Assembly: GCF_001659785.1 (NCBI RefSeq)
Contig: NZ_CP015961.1
Location: 2,852,001 to 2,916,000 of the forward strand
Source: Dietzia timorensis
GTDB lineage: Bacteria > Actinomycetota > Actinomycetes > Mycobacteriales > Mycobacteriaceae
Reading direction: 5' to 3'
DNA length: 64,000 bases
Positions 2,299 through 58,707 of the stretch are shown here, one piece after another (the stretch's first letter is position 1; each line of letters opens with the position of its first letter). A model generated the notes under the pieces. It did no database searches. It was not told the DNA's origin and worked only from the letters and a program-made list of their open reading frames with translations. The position numbers and the translations under genes are program-made.

Positions 2299-3230
2299 TC
2301 GTCGCGCTCACCGGCGCCACCGGGGCCGTCGGCTCCGCCCTGCTGCAGCACCTCGGCGGGCAGGACTGGGTCGAGGGGCTCGTGGTGCTCGGCAGGTGCC
2401 GGCCGGACCGGCTCCCGGGCCGCGCCCATTTCGTGCCGTGGGAGCTCGGTGACCTGTGGCCCGGCGAGGCCGTCGCGGCCGCCGTGGGCCGCGGGGTCGA
2501 TGCGCTCGTGCACGCCGCGTTCATCATCGAGGACACCCCGCGCCAGGCCGAGGCGTTCGCCGCCAACGTCGAGGGTTCGCTGCGCCTGCTCTCCACGGCC
2601 TCCGGCGCGGGCGTTCGCCACATCACGTTCGTGTCCAGCGCCAACGCCTACGGCCTGCGTTCGGGGCCCGTTCCCCTGGCCGAGTCCGATCCCATCTCCG
2701 ACGCGCCGCACCACTTCTACCTGCACCACAAATTCCTGTGCGAGATCGCGATCCGATCCTTCGCGCAGCTCGGGGGCGACGCAACCTTCGCCATCGCGCG
2801 CCCCTGCATGGTGGTCGGGCCCGGCGTGGCCAATTCGGCCCTGTCAACCATGACGTCGGACCCGCTTTTCTACCCGGCGCCGGAACATTCGAGTTACCAG
2901 TTCATCGGCGTCGACGACGTCGCCGATGCCCTGGCCCGCATCGTGGGTTCAATGGCCGGCGGCACCTTCAACCTCGCCCCGGACGATTCGCTGACGGTCC
3001 GCGACATCGCCCGCGCTCAGGGCCACCGGGCGATCGGGGTCCCGCTGTGGCTTGCGCGGAAGGCCAGCGATCTCGGGTTCGCCACCGGGCTCACGACGTT
3101 CTCCTCGCGCTGGGTCACCTACGGCGATCCCGTGATGCGGCCGTCCCGTTCCCGCGAGGTGCTCGGCTGGCAGGCATCCCGCTCGAGCCGGGAGGCACTT
3201 CGCTTGATCTCGGATACCGCTCAGGGCTGA
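2295..3230 (+). CDS. NAD(P)-dependent epimerase/dehydratase-type reductase
   Basis: The protein has 311 residues and begins with a Rossmann dinucleotide-binding motif, TGATGAVGSALLQHL, close to its N-terminus, followed by an extended-SDR body with the serine-containing strand FVSSANAYG near residue 113 and a YLHHK segment near 143 that fits the YxxxK catalytic pair. The GTG start overlaps the TGA of the oxoamine synthase gene (GTGA), which indicates translational coupling. In bacterial sphingolipid synthesis a ketone reductase of this superfamily (CerR) works with serine palmitoyltransferase, so a ketoreductase acting on the product of the preceding enzyme is a reasonable guess. A sugar-nucleotide epimerase role is the alternative. 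Confidence 0.75.
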   Translation: MIVALTGATGAVGSALLQHLGGQDWVEGLVVLGRCRPDRLPGRAHFVPWELGDLWPGEAVAAAVGRGVDALVHAAFIIEDTPRQAEAFAANVEGSLRLLSTASGAGVRHITFVSSANAYGLRSGPVPLAESDPISDAPHHFYLHHKFLCEIAIRSFAQLGGDATFAIARPCMVVGPGVANSALSTMTSDPLFYPAPEHSSYQFIGVDDVADALARIVGSMAGGTFNLAPDDSLTVRDIARAQGHRAIGVPLWLARKASDLGFATGLTTFSSRWVTYGDPVMRPSRSREVLGWQASRSSREALRLISDTAQG

Positions 3231-3278
3231 GCGGGTGGGCGGCAGTGTTCACGTCGCGCCGCCGGCGGCGCGCGGCAG

Positions 3279-4025
3279 CTACGCGGAGGTCCCCGCCGCG
3301 TACGCCGCCGCCGCGTCGCGCACGTCGGCCACGTACTCCTGCGAGGCGTTGTAGGCGAGCACCGCCCGCTGCCAGTTCTGGGCCTGGCTCAGGTCTCCCC
3401 CGGCCTCGCAGAGAAGCCGCGCGGTGGCGACGGCGGCATCGTCGATCTGATGGGGATCGGCGTGCCCGTTGCCATCGGCGTCGCGGCCGTACTTGTTCCA
3501 CGATTCGGGGATGAACTGCATCGGCCCGACCGCGCGGTCGTGTTCGGGATCCCCGTCCAAGGCGCCGCCATCGGTGTCGGGGATATCGGCGAAGCCGGGC
3601 GAACCATCGAGTTTGACGCCGATGATCGGCGGGTTCACGACGCCGTCGTCACCGATCGACGCGCCCTGGTGTCTGCCGTGCCGCGTTTCGACGTGGCCGA
3701 TCCCGGCGAGCGTCGTCCACCCGAGGTTGCACTCGGGCAGCGTCTGCCGCATGGTCTCGGCCGCGTTGGCGTAGGCGGCCAGTGCGGCCTGCGGGATGTC
3801 CATCTGCTCGTTGATGCCCTGCGCCCACGGGCGCAGCTGGTCGGACGTTCGGCCGGGCGCACCGATATCGATTTCGGGCACAGGCTCTCCGGCGTCAGGC
3901 GGAATCCCGGGCAGTACCGGCGCGGACGGTTCGCCGGAGGGGCCGAAGGAGCAGGAGGCCGCGGCCATGGCGACGGCGGCGAGAGGCGCCCCGAGCGCCG
4001 CGTGGCGCATGGAAAAGGATGTCAT
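3279..4025 (-). CDS. Lipoprotein lytic murein transglycosylase (SLT_2/MltB type)
   Basis: This 248-residue protein starts with a lipoprotein signal: a short basic region, a hydrophobic alanine-rich stretch and a cysteine in AAASC near residue 25. The mature part contains the peptidoglycan lytic transglycosylase signature, with the probable catalytic glutamate in GIGHVETRHG, then GPMQFIPESW and a calcium-binding-like DADGNGHADP loop, ending in the AVLAYNASQEYV helix. It should cleave peptidoglycan glycan strands at the outer face of the membrane. The ATG at 4025 follows GGGAAG. It is monocistronic by position: it converges with the epimerase and lies 101 bp downstream of a small membrane gene on the same strand. 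Confidence 0.85.
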   Translation of the reverse strand: MTSFSMRHAALGAPLAAVAMAAASCSFGPSGEPSAPVLPGIPPDAGEPVPEIDIGAPGRTSDQLRPWAQGINEQMDIPQAALAAYANAAETMRQTLPECNLGWTTLAGIGHVETRHGRHQGASIGDDGVVNPPIIGVKLDGSPGFADIPDTDGGALDGDPEHDRAVGPMQFIPESWNKYGRDADGNGHADPHQIDDAAVATARLLCEAGGDLSQAQNWQRAVLAYNASQEYVADVRDAAAAYAAGTSA

Positions 4026-4126
4026 CGCTTCCCATCCTTCCCGGGCGCGACCGTGTCGACATCGGGGACCTCCCGGATTTCGCCCCTTATCGTCTGGGCG
4101 ACGCCGCCTTCGAAAGTGGCTCTCAA

Positions 4127-4333
4127 TCAGACGCGTCGATTCGCGCTTGCCGTTCTGTTCTTTCGATACCTCAATACCGCTACTACCAAGATCACAACGA
4201 CGGCCAGGGCGATAAAGAACACCCAGTCGCTGAAGACTCCCTGGAGCACGTACAGCGCGAGAACAATTACCGCTGCGGCCACAAGAACCCACATCGACAT
4301 TCCGCCTGTCAGGGCGCGAAATTTGTGGTTCAC
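4127..4333 (-). CDS. Small two-helix membrane protein, unknown function
   Basis: I read a 68-residue protein from a GTG at 4333, chosen because AAGGAG lies 10 nt upstream. It has two hydrophobic segments, around residues 13-31 and 36-54, joined by a short VFSDW turn, and a basic tail (RYRKNR...ANRRV). The N-terminus is short and positively charged. Nothing identifies a function. An internal ATG at about residue 12 is an alternative start. It lies between the transglycosylase and the terminator of the TAP-like hydrolase, on the same strand as both. Confidence 0.6.
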   Translation of the reverse strand: MNHKFRALTGGMSMWVLVAAAVIVLALYVLQGVFSDWVFFIALAVVVILVVAVLRYRKNRTASANRRV

Positions 4334-4611: not shown

Positions 4612-6624
4612 CTACTGGCCGTAGTACTGATCCACCGTGTACTGCGCACCATTCTGCTGCGTACCCGTGAGCGCGCCGACCGCCTGGTCGATGCCCGCCG
4701 CTGCGTCGCGAGCAGCCTTCTCCGCGGGATCTTCCGCAGCTCCGCCGTCATTGGCGGTGGTGTTCTGAGCCTGCTGGCCGGTGGCCGCTGGGTCCTGCTC
4801 GGTGCCGGACTGCTCGGCGCCGGCCTGCTGCTCGGTGGGCTGAGCCTGCTGCTCGGTGGGCTGAGCCTGCTGGCCCGCCGGCTCGACAGCATCCTGCGCC
4901 GCCTGGGCGCCCGCATCCACGGCCTGAGAGATGCCGCGCTGCGCCTGGGCGAACGGGTTCTCGCCCTCGCCGTAGCCGACGGTGTTGCTCGGGTACTCGC
5001 CCTCAAGGGTGGTCGGCAGCGGCTTCGGGGTCGGGCGTCCCGGGAGAGTGTCCGGCGGGACGGTGCCGTTGGTGAAGAAGTCCGCGACCGCATCGTCGAT
5101 GAACTTGTTGCCCGTGCGGAACGCGCCGTGGCCGCCGTTGTCGACCGTGACGAGCTTGCCGCCCATGCGCTCGAGCATGTTCTCGGCGCCGCCCATCGGC
5201 GTGACCGCGTCGTGCACGTTCTGCAGGATGATCGGCTTCTGCTCGAGGCCCTCACCCGAGACCTTGATCGGCTCGGTGACCGGCTGGTAGCCGAAGCAGT
5301 CCGAGCCGGCGCGCTGCCCGGCGGCCTGGGCGAGCAGGCGGTCGCCGCCCGTCTTCGCGTCGAGCTCCGCCGAACCGATCGCCAGCGGGTTCTGGACCGT
5401 CTGGTCTTCGTTGCAGGTGACGATGCGGAACATGTCGTGCTGCGTGTTGAACTGCGTGTTGTCCGAGGCCTTCGCGTTGCGGATGCGCTGCGCCGCGACC
5501 GGGCTGACGCGCGGGATCTCGCCCTGGTTCTTGTCGTAGTACGACAGGATGTTCGCGACCATCGGCCACGAGGTCTCATTGAACGAGGCGCCGACGGCCG
5601 TGTCGTACATGCCCGAGGCCGCGTTGTTGGTGAGCTCGCGCAGCGTGACGGCGTTCCACAGGCCCTCGAGGCGCGCGCGCCCCGGGGCGGTGGTGTTGAT
5701 GACGTCGAGCGCCGGCTGCTGCACGGGCGTGCCGCGCAGCTCGTTCGGCAGATCGCCTTCCTGGGCGGCCGGCGGAATCATGTTCGACGGGCCGCCGACC
5801 TCCTGGTCGGAGATCGCCTTCCAGCGGTTGAACACCTTGAGCGGGGTATCGCCGAGGCCGTAGGTCTCGTCGTTGGACGCGATCCACTCGAACATGTCGT
5901 ACATTCGGGCGTGCTGCGCCTCGGTGGTCTGCGCGGACTGCTCCGACCACGCCCAGTCCGGGCCGACGTTGGAGTCGAGCATCATCTTGCCCGTGTGCTC
6001 CGGGTACAGGGTCGCGTAATCGGCGCCGAGCTTGGTGCCGTAGGAGACGCCGTAGTAGTCGATGGTCTCCAGGCCCATGGACTGGCGGACAAAATCCATA
6101 TCGCGGGCGGCGTTCTCCGTCGTCATCGACTCGATGTAGGCGCCATTGGTGCCGTAGCACGCATCGTGCAGCGGGTTGAGCGCGAACGGCGAGGCCAGCG
6201 ACGGGTCGCACTGAATGGGGTTCGAGCCCCACAGGCCGCGCGGCTGCACGGCGATGAGGTCGTGGTCGTTGTACAGGTCCGTCGGGGCGATGCCTGTGTC
6301 GCGGTTCGCCCAGAACATGAGCGCATCGTCGCCGGGGCCGCCGGGGTTGCCGAAGATCGCGGACTTCGACTGGCCGGACTTCGGCGAGACCTTCGACACG
6401 GCGATCGGCGTGGTCGGGCCGTCCGGGTTGTCGTAATCGAGCGGGGCGTCGACGATCGCGCACTCGAGGCGCTGCTCCTCGGGGACCGAGCCGGGCTCGA
6501 GATTGAACAGCGTCTCACAGGATTGCCACTGGATCGGCTGCACCGCCGTGGCCGTTCCCGCCGAGATTACCGCGGTGGCCCCCGCCATTGCCGCCACACT
6601 TACGATCTTGCCTTTGACCTGCAC
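4612..6624 (-). CDS. Secreted alpha/beta hydrolase with TAP-like C-terminal domain (Hip1/tripeptidyl aminopeptidase type)
   Basis: The product is 670 residues from a GTG at 6624 (18 residues more if the GTG at 6678 is used). The N-terminus is a Sec signal, MQVKGKIV followed by a hydrophobic stretch ending near TATA. After VDAPLDYDNPDG and the oxyanion motif GNPGGPGDD comes the nucleophile elbow GVSYG; a GGHGAF histidine stands in the TAP-like C-terminal domain. These are the marks of secreted exopeptidases of the mycobacterial Hip1/Streptomyces Slp type. The last ~90 residues are a disordered tail rich in Q, P, T, E and A with repeated QPTEQQA units, longer than usual in the family. A palindromic terminator follows the gene. 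Confidence 0.83.
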   Translation of the reverse strand: MQVKGKIVSVAAMAGATAVISAGTATAVQPIQWQSCETLFNLEPGSVPEEQRLECAIVDAPLDYDNPDGPTTPIAVSKVSPKSGQSKSAIFGNPGGPGDDALMFWANRDTGIAPTDLYNDHDLIAVQPRGLWGSNPIQCDPSLASPFALNPLHDACYGTNGAYIESMTTENAARDMDFVRQSMGLETIDYYGVSYGTKLGADYATLYPEHTGKMMLDSNVGPDWAWSEQSAQTTEAQHARMYDMFEWIASNDETYGLGDTPLKVFNRWKAISDQEVGGPSNMIPPAAQEGDLPNELRGTPVQQPALDVINTTAPGRARLEGLWNAVTLRELTNNAASGMYDTAVGASFNETSWPMVANILSYYDKNQGEIPRVSPVAAQRIRNAKASDNTQFNTQHDMFRIVTCNEDQTVQNPLAIGSAELDAKTGGDRLLAQAAGQRAGSDCFGYQPVTEPIKVSGEGLEQKPIILQNVHDAVTPMGGAENMLERMGGKLVTVDNGGHGAFRTGNKFIDDAVADFFTNGTVPPDTLPGRPTPKPLPTTLEGEYPSNTVGYGEGENPFAQAQRGISQAVDAGAQAAQDAVEPAGQQAQPTEQQAQPTEQQAGAEQSGTEQDPAATGQQAQNTTANDGGAAEDPAEKAARDAAAGIDQAVGALTGTQQNGAQYTVDQYYGQ

Positions 6625-6862: not shown

Positions 6863-7201
6863 TCAGTTTTCGTCTCGCGCTTCCTGAACGGGGGCATCCT
6901 CGGGCGCGCCGGCGGTCTCCTCTGGCGCGTCCTGAGGCGCGCCGGTCTCGCCACTGGGCGGAACGAGCGCCGCGAACAGCGCGACGAGCGCAACGTTGAA
7001 CAGCACCACCGCCGCCCCGAGCAGCCGCGTGTCCCACGACCGGTCGAGCACCTGCCCTTCCGCGTCCACCGGGGAGCCCGCAAGCGCCATCTCCGACGCC
7101 GAGTACCACAGCACAACGGCCAACAATCCGGCCATGACGGCGGAGGCGAGCAGAATCGCCCGGGTCCTCGCTCGCGGCGCGAGGCGGCGGGGGCTAGTCA
7201 T
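6863..7201 (-). CDS. Small membrane protein with acidic C-terminal tail
   Basis: A 112-residue protein with a basic N-terminus (SPRRLAPRARTR), two hydrophobic segments at about 16-33 and 66-86, and a disordered P/A/E/D-rich tail. The ATG at 7201 overlaps the TAG of the upstream gene by 8 nt, so it is translationally coupled to it. Order after hemB matches the position of the Rv0513/Rv0514 membrane-protein genes of M. tuberculosis. Function is unknown. Confidence 0.65.
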   Translation of the reverse strand: MTSPRRLAPRARTRAILLASAVMAGLLAVVLWYSASEMALAGSPVDAEGQVLDRSWDTRLLGAAVVLFNVALVALFAALVPPSGETGAPQDAPEETAGAPEDAPVQEARDEN

Positions 7202-7793
7202 GCGTGCCTCCGCCGTCATCCAGCGATGTTCCGTCCGTGCCCCCGGCGGGCGTATCGCTCGGCGGCTCGGCGGTTCCGACCTGCGAGATGAGGGCGGCTT
7301 CGAGGGCCTCGGGGTCGCGCGCGAAGGCGCGGACGAGGGAGCCGTCGACGAGTTTGATCCCGACCTCGCCGCGCTTGCGGGGGACGGTGCGCAGCTCGCC
7401 GAGCAGGCGGGTGCCGTCGACGGGTTCGGGCAGCACACCGTCGACCTCGGTGTACGGGAGTTCCTCGGTGCCCTGCCACAGCGATTCGTCGGTGACGCGC
7501 AGGCGGCCGTGGACGCGGGTCGCGGCGATCATGATCCCGTGGGTGAGCATCGTGCCCAGCGCGCAGACGGCCAGCATGAGCCAATGCACCGGCGCGCCCG
7601 TGGCGATCTCGAACAGGCCGGCGGCGGCGCAGAAGATCGGCGCGGCGAGGATCCACGCCCACGACCAGCCGTCCTCGGCGTAGAGGACGGTCTGGTCGCG
7701 CAGGCGCGGGTCCGGATCGCGCGGCATCCGGGCTTCTGCGCCGGCGCCGGGGTCGGCGGCCGGGTCGTCGGGGAACTCAGGGCTTGCCGACAC
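7194..7793 (-). CDS. Membrane protein downstream of hemB, unknown function
   Basis: The 199-residue product has a charged N-terminus, two membrane helices at about 35-75 (SWAWILAAPIF... and WLMLAVCALGTMLTHG) and a cytoplasmic-looking domain with regular strands (GRLRVTDESLW, ELPYTEVDGVLPEP, VGIKLVDGSLVRAFARDP). That arrangement, two helices followed by a PH-like beta domain, is common among actinobacterial membrane proteins of unknown role. The GTG start at 7793 follows AGGAG by 7 nt and overlaps the upstream gene by 17 bp; the end overlaps the downstream gene by 8 bp. All three genes probably form one operon. Confidence 0.7.
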   Translation of the reverse strand: MSASPEFPDDPAADPGAGAEARMPRDPDPRLRDQTVLYAEDGWSWAWILAAPIFCAAAGLFEIATGAPVHWLMLAVCALGTMLTHGIMIAATRVHGRLRVTDESLWQGTEELPYTEVDGVLPEPVDGTRLLGELRTVPRKRGEVGIKLVDGSLVRAFARDPEALEAALISQVGTAEPPSDTPAGGTDGTSLDDGGGTHD

Positions 7794-8789: not shown

Positions 8790-9833
8790 TTACGTGCGAT
8801 TCTGCCAGCCGACCGGCGCGCCGTGGGCTCCGCCGTCATTAATAAGCCGTGCCGCCTCCAGCGCGAAGTACGTGAGGATCATGTCTGCGCCGGCGCGGCG
8901 AAGGCTGTACAGCGACTCCACGATTGCCGGTTCGCGGTCGAGCCAACCGCGCTCGAACGCGGCGACGAGCATCGCGTATTCGCCGGAGACCTGGTACGTC
9001 GCGACTGGCACGTCGACGCTCGCGGCGGTCTGCGCGATGATGTCAGAAAACGACATCGCCGGCTTGACCATGACGATGTCCGCGCCCTCGTCGATGTCGA
9101 GCTCAACCTCGCGCAACGACTCGCGCGCATTGCCCGGATCCTGCTGGTAGGTGCGCCGATCTCCCTTGAGCGACGACCCGACCGCCTCCCGGAACGGCCC
9201 GTAGAACGCGCTCGCATACTTGGCGGCGTAGGCCAGCACGACGGTTTCCTCGAACCCGGCCGCATCGAGGGCCTCGCGAATGACGGCGACCTGTCCGTCC
9301 ATCATGCCGCTGGGGGCCACGATGTGCGCCCCGGCCTTCGCCTGGGCGACCGCCATTTTGGCGTACTGCTCGAGCGTGGCGTCGTTCTCGACGACCTGGG
9401 CGCCGCGCGCGTCGGTGCCGAGCACCCCGCAGTGGCCGTGGTCGGTGAACTCGTCGAGGCACAGGTCGCTCATGACGAGCGTGTCGTCGCCGACATCTTC
9501 GCGGATCGCGGCGAGTGCGCGGTTGAGGATGCCGTCGGGGCTGACGCCCGCCTCTCCGGTCGCGTCCTTGTCTTCGTCTTTGGGGACGCCGAAGACCATG
9601 ATCCCGCCGAGGCCTGTGGCGGCGACGTCATGGGCGACCTGCTTTATCGACTCGATGGTGTGCTGGTAGACGCCGGGGAGGGAGGAGATTTCCTTTGGTT
9701 CGGTGAGGCCGTCCGCGACGAACACGGGGAGAATGAGGTGGCGCGGCTCGAGGGAGGTTTCCGACACGAGCCGGCGCATGGCCGGGGACTGCCGCAGGCG
9801 GCGGGGGCGGTGGAACGGCTGCTGAATACCCAT
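8790..9833 (-). CDS. hemB: Delta-aminolevulinic acid dehydratase (porphobilinogen synthase)
   Basis: At 347 residues this is a full-length HemB, which condenses two 5-aminolevulinates to porphobilinogen. Visible are RRLVSET and LILPVFV near the N-terminus, the metal-site segment DLCLDEFTDHGHCG, APSGMMDGQV, and the two active-site lysines in AYAAKYASAFYGPF (about 212) and IVMVKPAMSF (about 265). The gene is downstream of the hemA-hemC-cobA/hemD set on the same strand but is separated from it by 293 bp holding a strong terminator and a 77-bp palindromic repeat. It therefore probably has its own promoter in 9834-9950. Confidence 0.95.
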   Translation of the reverse strand: MGIQQPFHRPRRLRQSPAMRRLVSETSLEPRHLILPVFVADGLTEPKEISSLPGVYQHTIESIKQVAHDVAATGLGGIMVFGVPKDEDKDATGEAGVSPDGILNRALAAIREDVGDDTLVMSDLCLDEFTDHGHCGVLGTDARGAQVVENDATLEQYAKMAVAQAKAGAHIVAPSGMMDGQVAVIREALDAAGFEETVVLAYAAKYASAFYGPFREAVGSSLKGDRRTYQQDPGNARESLREVELDIDEGADIVMVKPAMSFSDIIAQTAASVDVPVATYQVSGEYAMLVAAFERGWLDREPAIVESLYSLRRAGADMILTYFALEAARLINDGGAHGAPVGWQNRT

Positions 9834-11880: not shown

Positions 11881-12957
11881 CTAGCCCGGTTTCTCGCCGC
11901 CGGGCTCCGCGCCTGGCTGCCCGCCTTGCTCGGGCGGTATCTCCGGCGCGAGCGGCACGCGCTCGTCGGCCGTGCCGTTCGCGACCGCGACGACCTCCGC
12001 CGCCCCGCCCGCGAGCAGCGCGTTCGCGACCGTCTCGCCTAGTTCCCTGGCGGCGCCGAGCGCCCCATCCGCCGCTGCGTCGTCACCTATGACGGCGGAG
12101 GCGCTCTCCCGCAAGACCTTCGTGCCCGCGACGGACGCGACCACGGCCTCGAGGTGGAGCTCGCCTCCATCGAGCTGCGCGATCGCGCCGACCGGCGCCG
12201 TGCAGCCCGCCTCGAGAACCGCGAGCACCCGGCGTTCCGCGGTGACCGCGAGGGTCGACTCCGCATGGTCAAGCGCCGCGACGGCGGCCGCGGCGTACGC
12301 ATCGTCCGCGCGCGCCTCGACGGCCAGCGCGCCCTGCGCGGGCGCCGGCAGCATCTGCTCGGCCGTGAACTTCTGCGATGCCTTGGCCAGGCGGCCCGTC
12401 CGCGCGAGGCCAGCGCCGGCGAGGACGACCGCGTCGAGCTCGCCGCTGGTCACGAAGCCCATGCGTGTCTCGATGTTCCCGCGCAGCGGGACGAGGTCGA
12501 TGTCGGGGCGCAGGGCCGCGAGCTGCGCCCGGCGGCGCGGGGCCGAGGTGCCGACGCGGGCGCCCGCGCCGAGCTCGGCGAACGGGGTGTCCCCGGAGGA
12601 GACGAGCACGTCGAACGGGTACTCGCGCTCCGGGGTCGCGATCGGCGCGAAACGCTCGTCCTGCGCCGTCGGCAAGTCCTTGTAGGAGTGCACGGCGACG
12701 TCGCAGCGGTCGTTCGCGAGCGCATCGCGCAGGGCGTGGGTGAACACGCCGACGCCGATCCGCTCGACCGGCGCCATGTTCACGTCGCCCTCGGTGCGGA
12801 TGATGGTGAGTTCGGCCGGGTACCCGGCGGCGATGAGCGCGTCGCGCACGTGGCCCGCCTGAGTCGTCGCGAGCTCGCTGCCGCGGGTTCCGATGCGCAG
12901 CACTCGATCGGCGGTGGCGCCGTTCTGGGGCGCGCCACCGTTGGGGGCATCACTCAT
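11881..12957 (-). CDS. hemC: Hydroxymethylbilane synthase (porphobilinogen deaminase)
   Basis: The 358-residue product polymerises four porphobilinogens to hydroxymethylbilane. It shows RIGTRGSELATTQA, the active-site region VHSYKDLP, GTSAPRRRAQL, LRGNIETR, and the cysteine that carries the dipyrromethane cofactor in LEAGCTAPVGA. The C-terminus is longer than in Escherichia coli, with a proline- and glycine-rich tail. The ATG overlaps the hemA stop by 8 bp (ATGAGTGA), so the two are coupled. About 107 bp separate it from cobA/hemD. Confidence 0.95.
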   Translation of the reverse strand: MSDAPNGGAPQNGATADRVLRIGTRGSELATTQAGHVRDALIAAGYPAELTIIRTEGDVNMAPVERIGVGVFTHALRDALANDRCDVAVHSYKDLPTAQDERFAPIATPEREYPFDVLVSSGDTPFAELGAGARVGTSAPRRRAQLAALRPDIDLVPLRGNIETRMGFVTSGELDAVVLAGAGLARTGRLAKASQKFTAEQMLPAPAQGALAVEARADDAYAAAAVAALDHAESTLAVTAERRVLAVLEAGCTAPVGAIAQLDGGELHLEAVVASVAGTKVLRESASAVIGDDAAADGALGAARELGETVANALLAGGAAEVVAVANGTADERVPLAPEIPPEQGGQPGAEPGGEKPG

Positions 12958-14302
12958 GGACGCTGCCTTTCTTGACCTCGTTACCGAGGTCGAACAGTTC
13001 GCGCATGATGTCCGCGTAGGTATCGCCGCCCGGCTGCGCGGCCAGTTCCTTGAACTTGACCGTCGGCGGGTGCAGCAACTTATCGACCACGCGGCGCACG
13101 GTGCGCTCAACCTCGTCGCGCGTCGCGGCGTCGAGATCGGCGTTGCGCGAATCGAACCGGCGCAGCTCGGCGGTGACCACCTGGGCCCCGCGGCCGCGCA
13201 GCTGGGAGATCAACGGACCGACCTCGGCCACGCGCTCCCCGGAGACGTAGTCCGCGAGCTCCGTCGCGACGATCTCCCGCGCAATCGCCTTGTCGCGGGT
13301 CGCCGCGCGGGCGCCCGGGTCCTCGGCGAGCTGCGAGATATCGACGATCGCGACGTCGGGAAGACCGGCGACGGCCGGGTCGACATCGCGCGGAAGGCCG
13401 AGGTCGCAGAGCACCAGCGGACGCGGATCCTCGCCGCGCGCCTCGCGCTTCGCCAGGCCCGAATGCACATCGGCGAGGGTGACGACGGTGTTCGCCGCAC
13501 CCGTGCACACGAACACGACATCGGCGGCCGCAATCGCCTCGTCCAGCTGCTCCATGGGAAGCGCGGTCGCCTCGGTGCCGGAATCCCGCGCGATCTCGGC
13601 CAGCCGCGCCGCGCGCTCGGAGGTCCTGTTCAGTACGTGGATATGGGACACCCCGCCGCGCCCCAGGTGGGCCACGGCGAGCCCGCCCATCGCGCCGGCA
13701 CCGATGACGGCGGCGTTCAGGCCCTCGAGCGGGCGGTGATCTCCGCCGTCATCCACCGAACCGACCTGGCCGACGATGTCGGCAGCCTTCCCGAGAGCAA
13801 CGGTGACCATCGACGCGCCCGCGGAGTCGATGTTGGTCTCGGTGTGCACGCGCTTGCCGACGTGCAGCGCGCGCTGGGCGAGGCGGTGCAGCGTCGTTCC
13901 CGCGGCGCCCGAGGCGGCCGCGTCGTGGTAGGCGCTGCGGATCTGGCCGATGATCTGCTGCTCGCCGACGACGAGCGAATCGAGGCCCGAGGAGACGCTG
14001 AAGATGTGCTCGGCGGCGGCCTGCGAGTAGCGGACGTAGACCGACTCCGCGATCTCCTCGACCGTGAGCTCGGCGTTCGCCGCGAGGGTCGCGGTGATGA
14101 GTTCGAGGGCCGGGTGGAAGGCGTCGACCTCGGCATAAACCTCGACGCGGTTGCACGTGGAAACGAGCATCGCCTCGCGGATGGCCGACGACTCGAGGAG
14201 CCGCGCGGTGAAGGCATCGCGCTCGGACTCGACAACCGCGACGCGCTCGAGCAGCGACACCGAGGCGGAGCTGTACGACATGCCTACGACGAGCACGCTC
14301 AC
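12950..14302 (-). CDS. hemA: Glutamyl-tRNA reductase
   Basis: This 450-residue enzyme makes glutamate-1-semialdehyde from Glu-tRNA, the first step of the C5 heme route. It has the catalytic cysteine in LVSTCNRVEVYAE, the GEQQIIGQIRSAY segment, the NADPH-binding VIGAGAMGGLA, CDLGLPRDVDP and the C-terminal dimerisation helix. I chose the GTG at 14302 (VSVLVVGMSY) because it begins at the conserved N-terminus and has a G-rich stretch upstream; an upstream in-frame start adds 13 residues. A glycine/aspartate-rich insertion (VDDGGDHRP) before the nucleotide-binding motif carries one copy of the dispersed 11-base word described in the findings. Confidence 0.94.
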   Translation of the reverse strand: MSVLVVGMSYSSASVSLLERVAVVESERDAFTARLLESSAIREAMLVSTCNRVEVYAEVDAFHPALELITATLAANAELTVEEIAESVYVRYSQAAAEHIFSVSSGLDSLVVGEQQIIGQIRSAYHDAAASGAAGTTLHRLAQRALHVGKRVHTETNIDSAGASMVTVALGKAADIVGQVGSVDDGGDHRPLEGLNAAVIGAGAMGGLAVAHLGRGGVSHIHVLNRTSERAARLAEIARDSGTEATALPMEQLDEAIAAADVVFVCTGAANTVVTLADVHSGLAKREARGEDPRPLVLCDLGLPRDVDPAVAGLPDVAIVDISQLAEDPGARAATRDKAIAREIVATELADYVSGERVAEVGPLISQLRGRGAQVVTAELRRFDSRNADLDAATRDEVERTVRRVVDKLLHPPTVKFKELAAQPGGDTYADIMRELFDLGNEVKKGSVHE

Positions 14303-18662: not shown

Positions 18663-18682
18663 CGCCGGACGCGCCGATCCTC

Positions 18683-37883: not shown

Positions 37884-38402
37884 GTGACCAGAGTGCCACG
37901 CCTACGCCGCTGCACCGCGAGCCCGCGCCTCCCCAGGCGCGAAGAAACTCGCCTACCTGCACTTTCTCGCCGGCCTGCCGAAGCACGCCGCGAGCGCGGA
38001 CGCCACGACGCCCCCGCAACCCCGAAATCGCCCCGCCTCGGCCGCCGCCGAGTCCGTCGTCCCGCAAAGCGCACCGCGAGTCACCTTTCACCGTTGTCGT
38101 GACACCGGGATTTGTGGAGTGGGATAGCGGTTTGTCGGAGGGGTCGTCGGCGCGGATGGAGGAGCGGCGAAAAGGTGCCGTCACGTGACCAAGCACGTCC
38201 GGCGTCATGGGCGAAAGATGCTGGTGAAGGCCGCGCAGGCCGGCTCCATGCTGGAGGTCGATGGATTTCGGAAGGGTTGATGTGGGGCGCTCGGTGGAGC
38301 GTGATTGGCGGAGCGTGGTCGGAGGCGATGTTCGGGGCTCAGACGATGGCCGACCGTCGTTCGGCACGCGCACACGCGCACGGCGCGAGTAATCTCGGCC
38401 AC
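37884..38402. other. 519-bp gap between a hydrolase and an SDR gene
   Basis: I see no gene. The sequence is very G+C-rich with scattered short frames that have no start signals. It contains a reverse copy of the word ATGACGCCGGA (38198-38208) and a TAATCT box at 38390-38395 just before the SDR start. An in-frame open extension upstream of the SDR to 38112 has no family similarity and is not taken as coding. Confidence 0.45.
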
Positions 38403-42776: not shown

Positions 42777-44009
42777 ATGCCGCAGAAGCAGAAGCAGTTC
42801 GCCCAGTCGACGCGCCTCGCCGACGTCACTTATGACGTGCGCGGTCCGATCCTTCTCGAAGCCGCGCGACTGGAAGCAGAGGGGCACGACATCCTGCGTC
42901 TCAACCTCGGCAACATGTACCCCTTCGGACTCACCGCGCGCGAGGACATCGTCGACGCGGTCGCCGCGAGCATCGAGCCGGCCGAGGCGTACTCGGATTC
43001 CAAGGGCATCCTCCCCGCCCGACAGGCAGTGGCCGACTATTACGCCTCGTGCGGCCTCCCCGCGATCGACGTCGACCACATCTTTCTCGGCAACGGTGTT
43101 TCCGAACTCATCACGCTCGCGCTGCAGGCGATCGTCAATCCGGGCGACGAGATTCTCGTGCCCGCGCCGGATTATCCGACGTGGACGGGCGCGGTGAACC
43201 TCACCGGCGGCGTCCCCGTCCACTACCTCGCCGACGAGGCGAACGACTGGAATCCGAGCCTCGACGACATCGCCGCGAAGATCACCGATCGCACGAAGGC
43301 GCTCGTCCTGATCAATCCGAACAACCCGACCGGGGCCGTGTACAGCGAGGACACGGTCCGCGGAATGGCGGAGCTCGCCCGGCGTCATGACCTGATCCTG
43401 CTCTCGGACGAGATCTACGAGCACCTGGTGTTCGAGGGCGCGACGCATCACCACGCAGCGCGGCACGCGGGCGACGATGTCCTGTGCATGACCTTCGGCG
43501 GCCTGTCGAAATCGTTCCGCGTGTGCGGTTTTCGCGCGGGCTGGCTAGCTATCTCCGGTCCGACCGAGCGCGCCGGCGACCTTCTCGAGGGCATCGGATT
43601 GCTGTCCAACATGCGCGTGTGCCCGAACGTTCCGGGGCAGTACGCGATTCCCGCCGCGCTCGCGATCGGCGCCGACGAGCTGCCAGACGTGGTCGACCCC
43701 GGCCGCTCCATCGAACGCAGAGTGACGGCGAGCGCCGAGCTCCTCGAGGAGATCGACGGCGTCAGCTGCGTCGTACCGAAGGGCGCGCTGTACTGCTTCG
43801 CGCGGTTCGAACCGTCCGCGTTCGATTTCGCCGGTGATGACGACTTCGCTCTCGGCCTGCTGCGTGACGAGCACATTCTCGTCACCCGCGGGACCGGCTT
43901 CAACTGGCCGAACCCGGACCATTTCCGCATCGCGTGTCTGCCCCACATGGGCACCCTTGCGGGCGCTATCGCGAAGATCGGCGACTTCCTCGATCGTCAC
44001 CGCGTGTAG
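42777..44009 (+). CDS. Aminotransferase class I/II (alanine aminotransferase, AlaA/AspC-like)
   Basis: The 410-residue PLP enzyme has YSDSKGILPARQAVADYY, FLGNGVSELITLALQA, PAPDYPTWTGAVNL, LINPNNPTGAVYS, the aspartate region LLSDEIYEHL and the PLP lysine in GGLSKSFRVCGFRAGW. This resembles the glutamate-pyruvate aminotransferases AlaA of E. coli and Rv0337c of M. tuberculosis. CAGGAG precedes the ATG. It diverges from the MocR regulator, which probably controls it. Its stop is followed by a copy of ATGACGTCGGA at 44039. Confidence 0.9.
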   Translation: MPQKQKQFAQSTRLADVTYDVRGPILLEAARLEAEGHDILRLNLGNMYPFGLTAREDIVDAVAASIEPAEAYSDSKGILPARQAVADYYASCGLPAIDVDHIFLGNGVSELITLALQAIVNPGDEILVPAPDYPTWTGAVNLTGGVPVHYLADEANDWNPSLDDIAAKITDRTKALVLINPNNPTGAVYSEDTVRGMAELARRHDLILLSDEIYEHLVFEGATHHHAARHAGDDVLCMTFGGLSKSFRVCGFRAGWLAISGPTERAGDLLEGIGLLSNMRVCPNVPGQYAIPAALAIGADELPDVVDPGRSIERRVTASAELLEEIDGVSCVVPKGALYCFARFEPSAFDFAGDDDFALGLLRDEHILVTRGTGFNWPNPDHFRIACLPHMGTLAGAIAKIGDFLDRHRV

Positions 44010-44057
44010 AGCCGAGCCCGGCCGGCGCTTCCTCAGGTATGACGTCGGACGTCGCCG

Positions 44058-45979: not shown

Positions 45980-46046
45980 GCATCTATATTGACACACATC
46001 GAACCACCGGGCACTTCGCTCCACCGATGACGTCGGGCGCCGGCGT

Positions 46047-48985: not shown

Positions 48986-49570
48986 GTGATTGCACTCGCC
49001 ATCATCTGTGCCGAGATCCTGTTCTGGGTCTTTCTCCTTTCGGGCCTATTCGCCCGCTACGCACTGCGACAGAAGACGCTCGGACTCGTCTTGCTCGCGC
49101 TGACCCCGGTCGTCGACATCGTGCTCATCTCGCTCACGTACATCGACCTCCACCGGGGCGCGAACGCCTCGTTCTTCCACGGCATGGCGGCCGTGTACGT
49201 CGGGTTCACGGTGATGTTCGGACCCGCCATCGTGCGCGCGATGGACGCGAAATTCCTGCGCAGATACGGCGGTGGCGCAGGAGGCGCGGAGGACTCGGCA
49301 GCACCGACGTCATCCAGCGGGTCCGAATCGAGGAAGAACACGCGGCGCGACTGGCTCAAGGCATGTGCCGCGTGCGGGATCGCCGGTGTGCTGATCTCGA
49401 TCGCGATGGTCATTGTGGGTCTGCAGGGCTCGTTTTGGCTGATCTACTGGCTGGTGGCGCTCGCGTCGATCGTGGTCGGGTGGCCGTTAGTCACGCGCTG
49501 GTTGGAACAAAGGGAAGCCCGGAAGGCGGAGCAGCGCAGCGAGGAATTCGCACCCGAAAAGTCGGAGTAG
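48986..49570 (+). CDS. Integral membrane protein, unknown function
   Basis: The 194-residue product has membrane segments at about 2-24, 30-50, 62-80 and a pair near 132-170, a central S/G/A/E-rich linker (residues ~95-115) and a charged C-terminal tail. The first half, with FARYALRQKTLGLVLLALTPVVDIVLI in part, resembles small membrane proteins that occur in many actinobacteria. The GTG at 48986 follows CAAGGT. The linker carries a reverse copy of the dispersed word. No function is suggested by its neighbours. Confidence 0.7.
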   Translation: MIALAIICAEILFWVFLLSGLFARYALRQKTLGLVLLALTPVVDIVLISLTYIDLHRGANASFFHGMAAVYVGFTVMFGPAIVRAMDAKFLRRYGGGAGGAEDSAAPTSSSGSESRKNTRRDWLKACAACGIAGVLISIAMVIVGLQGSFWLIYWLVALASIVVGWPLVTRWLEQREARKAEQRSEEFAPEKSE

Positions 49571-51398: not shown

Positions 51399-52670
51399 AT
51401 GACCACCGCACACACCCGACCAACCACCAAGCGAGCGCCGCTCGACCGACTCATCGACGGCGTCACCTCGCTCCTGCTGACCCCGCACCCGTCCTCCACC
51501 TACAGCCGCTCGCTCGGGCTGGGCGGCCACGTCTCCAGGGGCGAAGCCGTCGTCGTCAGCGCGACGCGCCCGACCGAGGACTGGCTCATCCTCACTCTTC
51601 GCCCCTCGCAGGGCTACCGGCGTCCGCCGGCCGGCGGGGCCGTGTCGATCGGAGTCGTCATCGACGGCGTCGTCCACACTCGCTTCTACTCGCCGATCGA
51701 CCCGGTCGCCGCATCCCCGCGCACGCCGGGAGCGCAGACCCCGAACATCGACCCGTCCGGCGCGATCGGCGGCACCAACGCAGGTCGGCCACTCACCCTC
51801 GTGATCCGCCGCCACTCCGACGGCTTCGTCTCCGATCACCTGTGGCGCACCGCCGAGCCCGGACAGTCGTTCCTGCTGGACGAGGAATCCCAGGGCGACC
51901 CGGAGGCCGCGCTGCCCGAGCGCCGCCCGCATTCGGTGCTGCTCGTTTCCGGCGGCAGCGGGATCACCCCGATGCTCGCGATCGCCTCGACCCTCGCCAC
52001 CGAGAACCACACCGGGCGCGTCGCATGGCTGCACTACACCCGGTCCACCTCCGATATCCCGGTGCCCGGCAAACTACGCGAGATCGCGGCGAACTCGGGC
52101 ATCGATCTCCGGATCGTCACCACGGGAACCGATGCGCCCGGATCCCCCTCGGGAGACGTAACTCCGACGTCATACATGAATGGCGCCGATACCACGCGCG
52201 AGATGGGCGCGGCCGGGCCGGACCATCACGGATTGCGCGGGCACATCCTCGCAGGACACGTTGACGCCGTGGCGCCGTGGTTCGCCGAGGCGGAGGTGTT
52301 CTGCTGCGGACCCGACGCGCTGGCGGACGGGCTGGCCGAGATTCTCGGGCCCGAGCGATCGGAGTGGGTTCGGCGCGAACGGTTCAAGGCGACTGTCGCG
52401 GACATCCCGGACAGCGACGGCGGCACGGTCACGTTCGCGCGCAGTGGCCGCGATGCCGAGGTCTGCGGAACCACGATCCTCGAGGGCGCCGAAGACGCCG
52501 GCCTCTCCCCGACCTTTGGTTGCCGCATGGGCATCTGCTTTCAATGCGCCGCGACTCGCTTGAGCGGTGCCACTCGCGACCTTCGCACCGGCGAGGTCGA
52601 TAACACCCCCGATCGCCAAGTCCAGGTCTGTGTCTCCGCGCCCGTCGGCGACGTAGAGATCGACCTCTAA
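51399..52670 (+). CDS. Ferredoxin--NAD(P)H oxidoreductase, electron donor for the desaturase (Rv3230c-like)
   Basis: The 423-residue flavoprotein has a FAD-binding domain (RFYSPID), an NAD(P)-binding domain (LLVSGGSGITPMLAIA and FCCGPDALADGL) and a C-terminal plant-type 2Fe-2S ferredoxin domain with CRMGICFQC and a distal cysteine in VQVCVSAP. It corresponds to Rv3230c, the partner of DesA3 in M. tuberculosis, and passes electrons to the desaturase encoded 29 bp downstream. A linker at ~245-265 (PSGDVTPTSYMNGAD) is not typical of the family and includes a reverse copy of the dispersed word. Confidence 0.92.
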   Translation: MTTAHTRPTTKRAPLDRLIDGVTSLLLTPHPSSTYSRSLGLGGHVSRGEAVVVSATRPTEDWLILTLRPSQGYRRPPAGGAVSIGVVIDGVVHTRFYSPIDPVAASPRTPGAQTPNIDPSGAIGGTNAGRPLTLVIRRHSDGFVSDHLWRTAEPGQSFLLDEESQGDPEAALPERRPHSVLLVSGGSGITPMLAIASTLATENHTGRVAWLHYTRSTSDIPVPGKLREIAANSGIDLRIVTTGTDAPGSPSGDVTPTSYMNGADTTREMGAAGPDHHGLRGHILAGHVDAVAPWFAEAEVFCCGPDALADGLAEILGPERSEWVRRERFKATVADIPDSDGGTVTFARSGRDAEVCGTTILEGAEDAGLSPTFGCRMGICFQCAATRLSGATRDLRTGEVDNTPDRQVQVCVSAPVGDVEIDL

Positions 52671-54253: not shown

Positions 54254-55783
54254 TCAGCCGCCGAGGTTCCCGGATAACCTGCGCAGCCGGTCCGCGCTCG
54301 CGCCGTCGAGACCGATGATCTCGACGCTCGTCCCCTTCGCCGCGTACTTCTGCGTTATCGCGTCGAAAGTCGCAACGGTCGAGGCATCCCAGATATCGGT
54401 GTGCGTGAGGTCGATGACGACCCTCCCGGGGTCGTTCGCATAATCGAACTGGTACACGAGGTCGTTGCTCGAGGCCCAGAACAATTCTCCGCGCACGATG
54501 TACGTGCGGACGCCGTCGTCCGAGTCGATCGCGTCGACCGACGTCATATGTGCCACTCGGCGCGCGAAGAGAACCATGGCGGCCACGACACCGAGCACGA
54601 CGCCGATCGCGAGGTTATCGGTGGCGACCGTCGCTGCCACGGTAACAAGCATGACGAGGGTTTCGCTCCACGGCATGAGCCGCAGCGTTCGCGGGTTGAT
54701 CGAATGCCAATCGAAGGTGCCCACGCAGACCATGATCATCACGGCCACGAGCGCCGCCATGGGGATGAGGCCGACGACGTCCCCGAGAATGACGATAAGG
54801 ATGAGCAGAAACACGCCCGCCAGGAACGTGGAGAGACGCGTGCGTGCGCCGGACTGCTTGACGTTGATCATCGTCTGGCCGATCATCGCGCAGCCGCCCA
54901 TGCCGCCGAAGAACGACGTCACGATGTTCGCGGAACCCTGCCCCCACGCCTCGCGCGTCTTGTCGCTGCGCACCTCGGTGATGTCGTCGACGAGCTTCGC
55001 GGTCATGAGCGATTCCATGAGCCCGACCAGCGCCATCGCCAACGCGTACGGCGCGATCGTCGTCAGCGTCTCGAGCGAGAGCGGCACGTCGGGAATGAAC
55101 AGCGACGGCAGCGAATCGGGCAGCTCACCCTGGTCGCCGACGTTCGGAACCGCGAGCCCCGCCGCGATCACCACCACCGTGAGTACGACAATCGCGACGA
55201 GCGGCGCCGGTACGACCGAAGTCCATCGCGGCAGGAAAACCAGGATCGCAAGCCCTGCCGCGACCAGCGGATACACCAGCCACGGCACCCCGACCAGGTG
55301 CGGAATCTGCGCGATGAAAATGAGAATGGCGAGCGCGTTGACGAAGCCGATCATCACGCTGCGCGGAATGAAACGCATAAGCTTCGCAACCCCGAGCACC
55401 GCCAGCAGAATCTGGATGACGCCGGCGAGCAGCACTGTCGCGACGAGGTAGTCCATCCCGTATTCCTTCGCCACGGGGGCGACGACCAGCGCGACGGCGC
55501 CGGTGGCGGCCGAGATCATGGCGGGCCGGCCGCCGGTGAACGCGATCGTCACCGCCATCGTGAACGACGCGAAAAGCCCGACCCGCGGATCCACCCCGGC
55601 GAGAATCGAGAATGAAATCGCTTCGGGTATCAGCGCGAGCGCCACCACGAGGCCGCCGAAAACCTCGGTTCGCAGGCGTGCCGGCGAGGAAAAAGCGAAA
55701 CGAAACGACGGTATGACGCCGGTCGGCGCGATCGGCTCTGCCCGCCGTGCCGGGTTCGGGTCCGTGCTGGCACTCGTGGCCAC
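54254..55783 (-). CDS. SulP-family anion transporter with STAS domain
   Basis: The 509-residue protein has about twelve membrane segments (FGGLVVALALIPEAISFSILAGVDPRVGLFASF in part is the family signature region) and a C-terminal STAS domain (VVIDLTHTDIWDASTVATFDAI). The family carries sulphate, bicarbonate or dicarboxylates; the central GGMGGCAMIGQTMINVKQSGARTRLSTF segment in part fits the bicarbonate/sulphate group. The GTG at 55783 follows GAAGGGAG; an upstream GTG at 55810 is less likely. A two-unit 20-bp tandem repeat lies in the upstream region. Confidence 0.9.
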   Translation of the reverse strand: MATSASTDPNPARRAEPIAPTGVIPSFRFAFSSPARLRTEVFGGLVVALALIPEAISFSILAGVDPRVGLFASFTMAVTIAFTGGRPAMISAATGAVALVVAPVAKEYGMDYLVATVLLAGVIQILLAVLGVAKLMRFIPRSVMIGFVNALAILIFIAQIPHLVGVPWLVYPLVAAGLAILVFLPRWTSVVPAPLVAIVVLTVVVIAAGLAVPNVGDQGELPDSLPSLFIPDVPLSLETLTTIAPYALAMALVGLMESLMTAKLVDDITEVRSDKTREAWGQGSANIVTSFFGGMGGCAMIGQTMINVKQSGARTRLSTFLAGVFLLILIVILGDVVGLIPMAALVAVMIMVCVGTFDWHSINPRTLRLMPWSETLVMLVTVAATVATDNLAIGVVLGVVAAMVLFARRVAHMTSVDAIDSDDGVRTYIVRGELFWASSNDLVYQFDYANDPGRVVIDLTHTDIWDASTVATFDAITQKYAAKGTSVEIIGLDGASADRLRRLSGNLGG

Positions 55784-56991: not shown

Positions 56992-56995
56992 TAGA

Positions 56996-57054
56996 CACCA
57001 TGTAAGCGCCACATTTCATGGCATTTGGCGGCGAATTCTTACCGTTTCGTGGTG
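56996..57054. repeat. 59-bp palindromic repeat, family B copy 3
   Basis: It begins CACCATGTAAGCGCC and ends ACCGTTTCGTGGTG, 59 bp, with flanking TAGA and TCTA extending the inverted ends. It starts 4 bp after the stop codon of the AbiEi-like gene. Confidence 0.85.
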
Positions 57055-57096
57055 TCTAAGGCGGGAATCGGCCGGGCGCAGGCGGCGCGCGCGGAG

Positions 57097-58707
57097 CTAG
57101 GCGCGGATCGGGACCTCCCGCTCGATCCCGACCTGCCCGGCAAACCCAGCATCGTGCGTCACCAGCAGCAGCGCCCCCTTCCACTCGGCGAGCGCGCCCG
57201 CGAGCTGTTCCACTCCCGAAATGTCCAAGTTGTTCGTGGGCTCGTCGAGTACCAGCAGTTGCGGAAGCGGCCGCGCGAACAACGCCGCCGCCAAAAATGC
57301 TCGCAGCCGCTCTCCGCCGGAGAGCTCGCCGAGCCGCTTCGACCCCGAATCCCCCGTAAACAGGAACCGCGCGGCATGCGCATGCGGCTCGGAGGACTCC
57401 GCGTCCGGCCGCCGCGACGCGATAAGCTCCACCACGGTCACATCCCTTTCCTCGGCCGATACCGGTAGGTCCTGCGCGAGATAGGCGAAAGGCACCGCGA
57501 TCGCGCCTTCCTCACCGACCGCGCTCACCAGCTGGCGCAGAAACGTCGTCTTCCCACTACCGTTCGCGCCGGTCAGGCGCACGCGCTCGGGCCCGAGCAA
57601 CTGCAGCGGGCGGGGGTCGCCGGCACCAGCGCCGCCCGGCAGCCCGGCCGCCATCACCTGCCGAGGACGCGGCAGCTCGGGATCGGGCAGCGAGATCCGC
57701 AGTAGCTGGGTCCGGCGCACCGCGTCGTCCGCCTCGCGCGCGGCCTCCGAAGCACCGGACACCTTCTCCGCATGCCGATCGGTGAGCTTGCCCGCCGCCT
57801 TCTCCGCCGCATCGGCCCGCATCCCCGAAATGATCTTCGGCACCCGCTTCTCGCGCTCGGCCTTCTTCGCGATCCGCGCGCGCGTGGCGTTCATCTGTTG
57901 CGCCTGGTCACGCTGCCGCCGCGCCGCGCGCAGGTCCTCACGCGCGCTCGTCGCCGCCTGCACCGCCGCCGCCTGCTCGCACTCGATCGCCTCGCGCATC
58001 GCCGAATACGGCCCCGCGAACTGCCGCACGTCGCCATCATGGAGCTCGCATGTCATGTCCGCGCGCTCGAGCAATTCCAGGTCGTGCGAGACCATCACTG
58101 CGCACCGCCCGCCGCCGGTAAACTCCGCCAAAGCGTCGAACAGCCGCCGCCGCGCGCCGGCGTCGAGGTTGTTCGTCGGCTCGTCGAGAAGCAGCACGTC
58201 GGCGTGCGCGAGTAGCGCCCCCGCAACAGCTGCCAAGGTTCGCTCGCCGCCGCTCAGCTGCGCGGCGGGACGAAAAAGGTCGCCGGGTCCCGCCGGCAAA
58301 CCCATCTTCGCGATGACGGCGGACGTCCGTTCCGCCACGTCCCACTCGTCGCCGAGCACGGTGAAATCGTCCTCGTCCGCCGATCCCGCCTCGATCCGGG
58401 CCAGCGCCGCGAGGCGAGAGCGCACGCCGAGCAGGTCCGCCATCTGCGGCCCACCGCCGCCGCTGGCAGCACCGCGCGAGGAAGCAAGCAGGTCTTGGGG
58501 GACATAGGCGAGCACGCCGTCAACAAGCACCGTCCCGGAACCGGGGGCGAGTTCGCCCGCCACGAGGCGCAGCAGGGTGGTCTTGCCGGCGCCGTTGCGC
58601 CCCACGAGAGAGGAAAGTCCGGGGCCGAGAGTCAGGCTCAGGCCATCGAAAACCGAAGTGCGGTCGGGGTGTTCGTAAGAGATGTCGATACAGGAAATAG
58701 AGGGCAT
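57097..58707 (-). CDS. ABC-F family ATPase
   Basis: The 536-residue protein has two ABC domains and no membrane part. The first has Walker A SLVGRNGAGKTTLL, signature LSGGERTLAAVAGALL and Walker B VLLLDEPTNNLD; the second has LTGANGSGKTTFL, LSGGERLRAFLAAALF and LLVLDEPTNNLD. Between them (about 245-330) is a helical, arginine- and lysine-rich linker, the P-site tRNA interaction motif of ABC-F proteins that protect or tune ribosomes. Some relatives give resistance to macrolides, lincosamides or streptogramins; which group applies is undetermined. A GC-rich hairpin lies in the 5' leader. Confidence 0.9.
   Translation of the reverse strand: MPSISCIDISYEHPDRTSVFDGLSLTLGPGLSSLVGRNGAGKTTLLRLVAGELAPGSGTVLVDGVLAYVPQDLLASSRGAASGGGGPQMADLLGVRSRLAALARIEAGSADEDDFTVLGDEWDVAERTSAVIAKMGLPAGPGDLFRPAAQLSGGERTLAAVAGALLAHADVLLLDEPTNNLDAGARRRLFDALAEFTGGGRCAVMVSHDLELLERADMTCELHDGDVRQFAGPYSAMREAIECEQAAAVQAATSAREDLRAARRQRDQAQQMNATRARIAKKAEREKRVPKIISGMRADAAEKAAGKLTDRHAEKVSGASEAAREADDAVRRTQLLRISLPDPELPRPRQVMAAGLPGGAGAGDPRPLQLLGPERVRLTGANGSGKTTFLRQLVSAVGEEGAIAVPFAYLAQDLPVSAEERDVTVVELIASRRPDAESSEPHAHAARFLFTGDSGSKRLGELSGGERLRAFLAAALFARPLPQLLVLDEPTNNLDISGVEQLAGALAEWKGALLLVTHDAGFAGQVGIEREVPIRA

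Follow-up and report, generated by a model that had tools for sequence, protein, structure and literature searches.

Strong preference for DNA that carries a particular short sequence during uptake is described for two bacterial families, Pasteurellaceae and Neisseriaceae (PMC7811141). In the sections of the literature available to us, the DNA uptake sequences (DUS) of Neisseriaceae and the uptake signal sequences (USS) of Pasteurellaceae are described as occurring in thousands of copies, sitting at permissive positions, and forming inverted pairs; they are scarce in newly acquired DNA, originate by point mutation, keep a strict inner core, and accumulate by molecular drive (PMC3630211, PMC7811141; the interpretation given here also draws on the available parts of PMC6370729 and PMC7371117). 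Atypical DUS distributions are reported to have served for detecting integrated elements. The available part of another paper reports that tad genes are needed for transformation of the actinobacterium Micrococcus luteus (PMC4322843). Here we analyze a short word, ATGACGNCGG, in a 64,000-nucleotide stretch (called the window) of the chromosome of another actinobacterium, Dietzia timorensis (NZ_CP015961.1, positions 2,852,001 to 2,916,000). From its pattern in the genome we infer that the word probably works like a DNA uptake sequence, without being a neisserial DUS. We know of no uptake-sequence label in Actinobacteria, and the word would be the first known to us there if this reading holds.

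An exact search of the window finds 30 copies of ATGACGNCGG (17 on the plus and 13 on the minus strand), while 100 dinucleotide shuffles of the window give a mean of 1.64 and a maximum of 5. Other Dietzia genomes (siblings) provide a fairer baseline than shuffles: 28 copies per 840 kb (G005, 10 in 240 kb; G002, 5 in 220 kb; G017, 8 in 200 kb; G014, 5 in 180 kb), or ~2 per 64 kb. An earlier note on the window had listed 27 copies (16 plus, 11 minus), 20 of them followed by A. The excess stands and the numbers change: 29 copies lie within 2850-58323 and one at 1277, and A is the next base in 21 of the 30. The whole genome, a single contig of 3,607,892 bases, has 1,077 copies (538 plus and 539 minus), a density of 0.30/kb. 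The same word read backwards, used as a control, occurs 18 times (11 plus, 7 minus).

Further counts were made in a core sample of 624 kb. This sample omits 10 of the 39 stretches taken from the D. timorensis genome (L007, L058-L064, L084, and L085), namely an island, an insert in the tad locus with its flanks, and one low-G+C stretch. Since some of the omitted stretches were picked after their word counts were known, the core rate is slightly raised, and the whole-genome rate is given alongside. The 11-mer ATGACGNCGGA is found 136 times in the core sample, where 5.1 copies are expected. Markov models predict 4.1 (order 3), 6.1 (order 5), 10.1 (order 6), and 26.1 (order 7) copies; note that models at the high end absorb the word itself. 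The earlier note had named two results that would speak against selection on the word, a frequency no higher than Markov or codon-shuffle expectations and conservation of the word-bearing protein positions in species that lack it; both were examined, with samples standing in wherever the whole genome was unavailable. For the first, the word is far above expectation.

Such a word might become frequent through codon usage, or through a peptide or start-codon context that is itself common (M-T-x-D/E, D-x-G), and the in-gene copies do favour frames that fit G+C-rich third positions. This explanation is refuted by codon shuffles. In 533 genes (512 kb) called with our own simple codon-based caller (comEC and some other genes escaped it), the 11-mer is observed 99 times and the 10-mer 160 times, whereas 60 shuffles give 9.35 ± 2.9 (maximum 19) and 33.7 ± 5.1 (maximum 48), respectively. 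Among 155 classified sites of the first sample, 4 are at called starts, 41 are intergenic, 1 lies across a stop, and 109 are in genes, in both orientations. Because the caller under-calls, the count of 41 sets an upper limit on the intergenic share. Relatives with similar proteins are without the word. An artefact of start-codon or peptide context was thus rejected, and codon usage is scarcely credible as the source of the word.

The word is enriched in one genome only among those searched. While the D. timorensis genome has 704 copies of ATGACGNCGGA, each of 22 same-genus genomes has 8-26. None of 400 other genomes in the family has more than 66, and the 147 other class members searched reach at most 88 (both sets include genomes at least 90% complete and partly overlap). 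When named relatives are ranked by the HemA neighbourhood, 11 Dietzia loci with 60-63% identity come first. A dialect of the word in siblings was also considered and rejected: in ~100 kb each of G002, G005, G014, and G017 no word is as strong, and the top words are weaker (z below 9) or, in G017, GAC-type repeats. In the G014 sample a run of ~5 kb of N fills most of the top-word listing, and the verdict on this genome rests mainly on another comparison.

In refined form the word reads (T)ATGACG(G/T)CGGA(G/C); its inner core is strict, whereas its edges tolerate change. The word table was first built on 464 kb (the window and 20 stretches) and then redone on 624 kb, and the word was sharp already in the first. 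In the 624 kb, one-base variants are not in excess at letters 3-9 (38 vs ~44 expected, without N) or at letter 2 (19 vs 17). The edges are more tolerant, with 62 variants at the first A (10 expected), 37 at the last G (12.8 expected), and 74 at the last A (24 expected). Over all positions there are 230 one-off variants (107.7 expected). At the 12th position 130 of the 136 copies have C or G, and the most enriched preceding base is T (49 vs 0.3 expected). Beyond this the flanks show weak preferences only, with no conserved flanking sequence in the logo. An ab initio search for gapped words places TGACG.CGGA, ATGACG.CGG, and the reverse complements of both first in each of two separate 100 kb samples.

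The word is scarce in acquired DNA. An island of ~128 kb (312870-440900) begins at a tRNA-Ser gene (312779-312865), has an integrase gene just inside (at 313008), and extends to a partial duplicate of that tRNA (440831-440886). In 121.1 kb of this region one copy is found, where 40.8 are expected at the core rate (Poisson 8e-17) and 36 at the whole-genome rate; the 121.1 kb lies between 312.9 and 444.0 kb, excludes 350-360 kb, and includes ~3 kb beyond the duplicated tRNA end. Along the genome the plus-strand copies jump from 312340 to 463021. Similarly, a 15.5 kb element inserted in the pilus ATPase gene has 1 copy (5.2 expected). The tRNA-Ser island (L058-L063, L007) also contains several transposase-like genes, and a CoA-type catabolic gene cluster exists there, whole or in part, in three copies at ~343, 365, and 405 kb, as judged by identical protein starts. 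Elsewhere, the stretch 1720001-1740000 (L064), with 58% G+C, few called genes, and only two copies of the word, is perhaps another acquired region.

Comparison with siblings bears on how the copies arose. The word is present in none of 74 ungapped orthologous sibling comparisons, and in 25 of the 74 the sibling is only 1-2 mismatches away; 5 further comparisons are gapped. The copies look like products of point mutation, mostly at weakly conserved positions. Spread as a repeat or mobile element was ruled out by the lack of conserved flanks and by the ungapped state of 74 of 79 orthologous comparisons. Mutational bias is suspected for some iterated words, and the point changes that separate the copies from their sibling sites would fit a mutational or gene-conversion bias that creates the word without any link to uptake. 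Such a bias, however, might also build one-off words, and letters 3-9 show no excess of near misses. It should affect the island too, which has one copy, although recent arrival could explain this. A bias of this kind is very improbable.

The density of the word is 0.45/kb in non-coding DNA (50 in ~112 kb) and 0.31/kb in coding DNA (160 in 512 kb). The DNA examined contains a sibling orthologue for 27 of the 160 coding sites of the core sample, of which 21 could be aligned and 6 fall outside the alignment. At the 21 aligned sites the mean local protein identity is 0.45, compared with 0.62 gene-wide (mean rank 0.33; Wilcoxon p=0.02), and 15 of them are below the median conservation of their gene. 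The effect is modest. Word-bearing protein positions, where they could be followed (21 of 160 sites), are therefore less conserved than the rest of the gene in species without the word. The earlier note had placed the copies in intergenic gaps and in variable linkers of conserved proteins. Intergenic and weakly conserved sites are indeed used, but placement is not exclusive, as 6 of the 21 sites are not below the median. In the gene that the note labelled HemA, the copy at 13743 is in the variable linker as described, while that at 13704 covers residues around NAAVI, past the linker. The copies in the window are listed below by position, strand, sequence, and context.

1277..1286, minus strand, ATGACGTCGG: within a called gene; 3' base G
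2850..2859, plus strand, ATGACGTCGGA: within a called gene
4742..4751, minus strand, ATGACGGCGGA: 130 bp from the 3' end of the gene, beyond the sibling-aligned part
6117..6126, minus strand, ATGACGACGGA: conserved peptide SMTTE; siblings differ by 1-4 mismatches
7134..7143, plus strand, ATGACGGCGGA: forms an inverted pair with 7210 (76 bp)
7210..7219, minus strand, ATGACGGCGGA: close to the 3' end of the gene; inverted pair with 7134
8830..8839, minus strand, ATGACGGCGGA: close to the 3' end of the gene
12089..12098, plus strand, ATGACGGCGGA: variable segment, local identity 0.16 vs 0.63
13704..13713, plus strand, ATGACGGCGG: HemA residues around NAAVI, right after the linker; 3' base C; local identity 0.50 vs 0.62; paired in inverted orientation with 13743
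13743..13752, minus strand, ATGACGGCGGA: HemA variable linker VDDGGD, local identity 0.23 vs 0.62
17541..17550, plus strand, ATGACGGCGGA: within a called gene
18659..18668, plus strand, ATGACGCCGGA: overlaps a called gene's TGA stop codon
24503..24512, minus strand, ATGACGTCGGA: unconserved position, local identity 0.0 vs 0.67
25269..25278, plus strand, ATGACGCCGG: within a called gene; 3' base T
28103..28112, plus strand, ATGACGTCGGA: conserved peptide FNDVG; siblings differ by 1-3 mismatches
30813..30822, plus strand, ATGACGCCGGA: within a called gene
32276..32285, plus strand, ATGACGTCGGA: 3' end of the gene
33612..33621, minus strand, ATGACGCCGGA: within a called gene
34592..34601, plus strand, ATGACGTCGGA: intergenic (own caller)
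38199..38208, minus strand, ATGACGCCGGA: intergenic (own caller)
41257..41266, plus strand, ATGACGCCGGA: within a called gene
43379..43388, minus strand, ATGACGCCGG: within a called gene; 3' base G
44039..44048, plus strand, ATGACGTCGGA: intergenic (own caller)
46027..46036, plus strand, ATGACGTCGG: intergenic (own caller); 3' base G
49304..49313, minus strand, ATGACGTCGG: within a called gene; 3' base T
52164..52173, minus strand, ATGACGTCGGA: within a called gene
54538..54547, minus strand, ATGACGTCGG: within a called gene; 3' base T
55416..55425, plus strand, ATGACGCCGG: within a called gene; 3' base C
55713..55722, plus strand, ATGACGCCGG: intergenic (own caller); 3' base T
58313..58322, plus strand, ATGACGGCGGA: within a called gene

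For the distribution along the chromosome, the origin was set near base 1 by the gene order dnaA-dnaN-recF-gyrB-gyrA (genes recognized by eye in translations), and the terminus was assumed to be opposite. Among the 39 sampled stretches, one half of the chromosome has 50 plus and 51 minus copies and the other 66 plus and 53 minus, indicating no replication polarity, and no pile-up is found near the origin or terminus. Counts in 62 bins of 10 kb vary slightly less than random placement would give (variance/mean 0.85). Even spread, equal strands, a strict core, and scarcity in the island would all be consistent with ~1,000 functional sites at which a species-specific protein of the nucleoid, of repair, or of segregation binds the word. 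The lack of concentration at origin or terminus, however, counts against such sites. In addition, ~1,000 sites would have to be individually selected in one species, yet the 22 same-genus genomes stay at 8-26 copies, and many of the sites are at weakly conserved coding positions. We consider this explanation unlikely.

Chi and KOPS are short, non-palindromic words that exist in excess and are polar to replication. The D. timorensis word is likewise short, non-palindromic, and in excess, but it is not polar; identity with Chi or KOPS was dismissed on this ground, and the absence of such polarity, noted earlier for the window, holds by chromosome half. HIP1 of cyanobacteria, whose function is debated, is also a very abundant short word, but it is palindromic, unlike the word described here.

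Neighbouring copies are oriented relative to each other. Those less than 200 bp apart are inverted in 10 of 10 cases and those less than 500 bp apart in 22 of 25 (P 1.6e-4; the limits were set after seeing the data), and the bias is gone beyond 1 kb. As close neighbours are inverted yet not more numerous than expected, it is same-direction neighbours that are avoided (3 of 25 under 500 bp). No such feature was seen stated for DUS in the sections available. The avoidance suggests orientation-dependent reading of the word.

Another reading is that the word marks self DNA for some other system, either as a Chi-like site that initiates recombination or as a recognition site for modification or defence. 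In its favour, the word is non-palindromic and its near copies are mostly inverted, so that orientation seems to matter. Two genes of DNA methyltransferase type and McrBC-like genes are in fact present inside the element in the pilus ATPase gene. Sites of Chi or KOPS type are polar, though, whereas the word is balanced in both halves, and restriction sites are usually avoided rather than amplified, which counts against a role of this kind. The methyltransferase genes themselves are on a low-G+C element with its single word, and are therefore unlikely to have shaped the word. A self-mark of this sort is quite unlikely.

In the reading that we prefer, (T)ATGACGKCGGAS would be a species-specific DNA uptake sequence. 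A surface DNA-binding component of a natural-transformation system would have preferred DNA carrying the word. Imported fragments would have recombined at the homologous locus, so that each chance copy was favoured over the allele without the word, and copies would have accumulated by point mutation and biased replacement wherever the protein sequence permitted (molecular drive). The likely route would be the Flp/Tad pilus followed by ComEA, ComEC, and DprA, as in M. luteus, with the Flp ATPase gene now interrupted by a mobile element in the sequenced isolate. No excess of core-mutated copies is found, which suggests that the drive was active until recently. The earlier note had proposed that the DNA word, not the proteins, is under selection, and had named DNA uptake sequences, the alternative being a site for a nucleoid, repair, or partition protein; the island scarcity, the background counts in relatives, the strict core, and the apparent origin by point mutation support this proposal.

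The full neisserial DUS is a 12-mer, of which GCCGTCTGAA is a 10-mer part. By eye, ATGACGTCGGA agrees at 9 of 11 letters with AT + GCCGTCTGAA; no receptor homology was found, and the agreement may be chance. Like the neisserial DUS, the D. timorensis word is short and non-palindromic, has roughly a thousand or more copies, a strict core with tolerant edges, inverted close pairs, and permissive positions, and contains a UGA stop in one reading frame. The ratio of one-off to perfect copies (raw 230:136 = 1.7) is comparable to the examples of 1.15 and 1.45 in the available part of the neisserial paper (PMC3630211). Differences are also clear. The D. timorensis word has CGG where the neisserial word is described as having a required 5'-CTG-3' core (PMC3630211). 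No N_methyl pilin is over the cut-off, so that no ComP-like receptor is seen, and Flp/Tad genes rather than type IVa pili are present. The neisserial word reaches ~1,900 copies in 2.2-2.3 Mb, compared with 0.30/kb for this one, which comes from an actinobacterium and is enriched in a single searched genome. Thus the genome-side features looked for were found, an excess of close pairs apart, while the CTG core and the type IV pilin were not, and the word is better described as uptake-sequence-like than as a neisserial DUS.

With the USS of Pasteurellaceae (1,465 core copies in H. influenzae) the word shares a core with weaker flanks, scarcity in new DNA, origin by point mutation, and molecular drive as the proposed force, according to the available sections (PMC7811141). 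The word itself is different, A+T-rich flanking tracts are absent from its logo, and phylum and cell envelope are different. In M. luteus, tad genes and ComEA/ComEC function in the transformation of an actinobacterium, as the available part of the report describes (PMC4322843); in D. timorensis, by contrast, the tad ATPase gene is interrupted. The main text of that report (PMC4322843) does not use the terms "uptake sequence", "heterologous", or "foreign DNA".

As for the machinery, the ComEC gene is present at 1333650-1335194 (L086) with an open frame of 514 codons; since it was missed by the codon-based caller, its codon use may be atypical. The ComEA gene is present with its frame open (an HHH_3 match, and the ComEA repeat model over the cut-off), as is the DprA gene. 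The Flp/Tad locus contains the split ATPase gene, a T2SSF-domain gene, a DUF4244 gene, which we take to be Flp-like, a Tad-domain gene, and a weak TadE-like gene (below the cut-off).

Several observations weigh against uptake. The sole Flp/Tad ATPase gene found is split at 582917-~598415 by the 15.5 kb element, so that the machinery is not intact even though ComEA, ComEC, and DprA are present, and the Flp/Tad route of DNA uptake may be closed to the isolate. A second tad-type ATPase, found in siblings, has no match in the D. timorensis genome. No N_methyl type IV pilin is over the cut-off (best E 0.2), although the short profile can miss pilins, and no receptor was identified. Close pairs are not in excess (5 vs 3.7 expected under 50 bp; 25 vs 33.9 under 500 bp), whereas Neisseria has many inverted pairs. 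Six of the 21 testable coding copies exceed the median conservation of their gene, and some are in well conserved peptides (6117, 28103, and 14986 of L071). Scarcity in the acquired island would also be expected of any word that spreads slowly. Finally, no report of transformation in Dietzia is among the literature matches listed, one of which mentions Dietzia once.

Given that core-mutated copies are not in excess, any break of the ATPase gene would be recent, or else another force would maintain the word. It is conceivable, if somewhat doubtful, that uptake sequences were invented independently a third time, here in an actinobacterium, with a non-ComP receptor on the Flp/Tad-ComEA route, a code private to one species, and a reader recently silenced by an element in the ATPase P-loop. 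Such silencing, if true, would be a genomic record of conflict between mobile DNA and transformation. If confirmed, this would be a third origin of an uptake code, with a cell envelope of another type and perhaps recent enough for studying how codes begin. The word makes it testable whether uptake bias alone can build a word, and offers a DNA bait for a Flp-linked receptor.

In the literature search, which left subscription papers outside, no paper joining Dietzia and "uptake sequence" was found, nor one on DUS in Actinobacteria with natural competence and overrepresentation; DUS together with Micrococcus luteus gave a review only. When the word was spelled out, none of the matches listed concerned a genomic repeat, as judged by titles and the beginnings of abstracts.

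Among the 22 siblings, an ATPase of the same kind as the split one is over the cut-off in 14 of the 22, and the second tad-type ATPase, which is stronger (E about 1e-72), is found in 12 of the 22, with a CpaE-CpaF-TadB-like gene order in G002 (L077). Direct comparison with intact siblings places the break in the Walker A motif. The inserted element has 52% G+C and encodes a tyrosine recombinase, followed by two large genes without assignment. It further contains a small gene whose HTH match is weak, McrC-like and McrB-like genes, the two methyltransferase genes (N6/N4 type), and an IS1380 transposase, an arrangement that, to our eyes, recalls Tn554-type elements.

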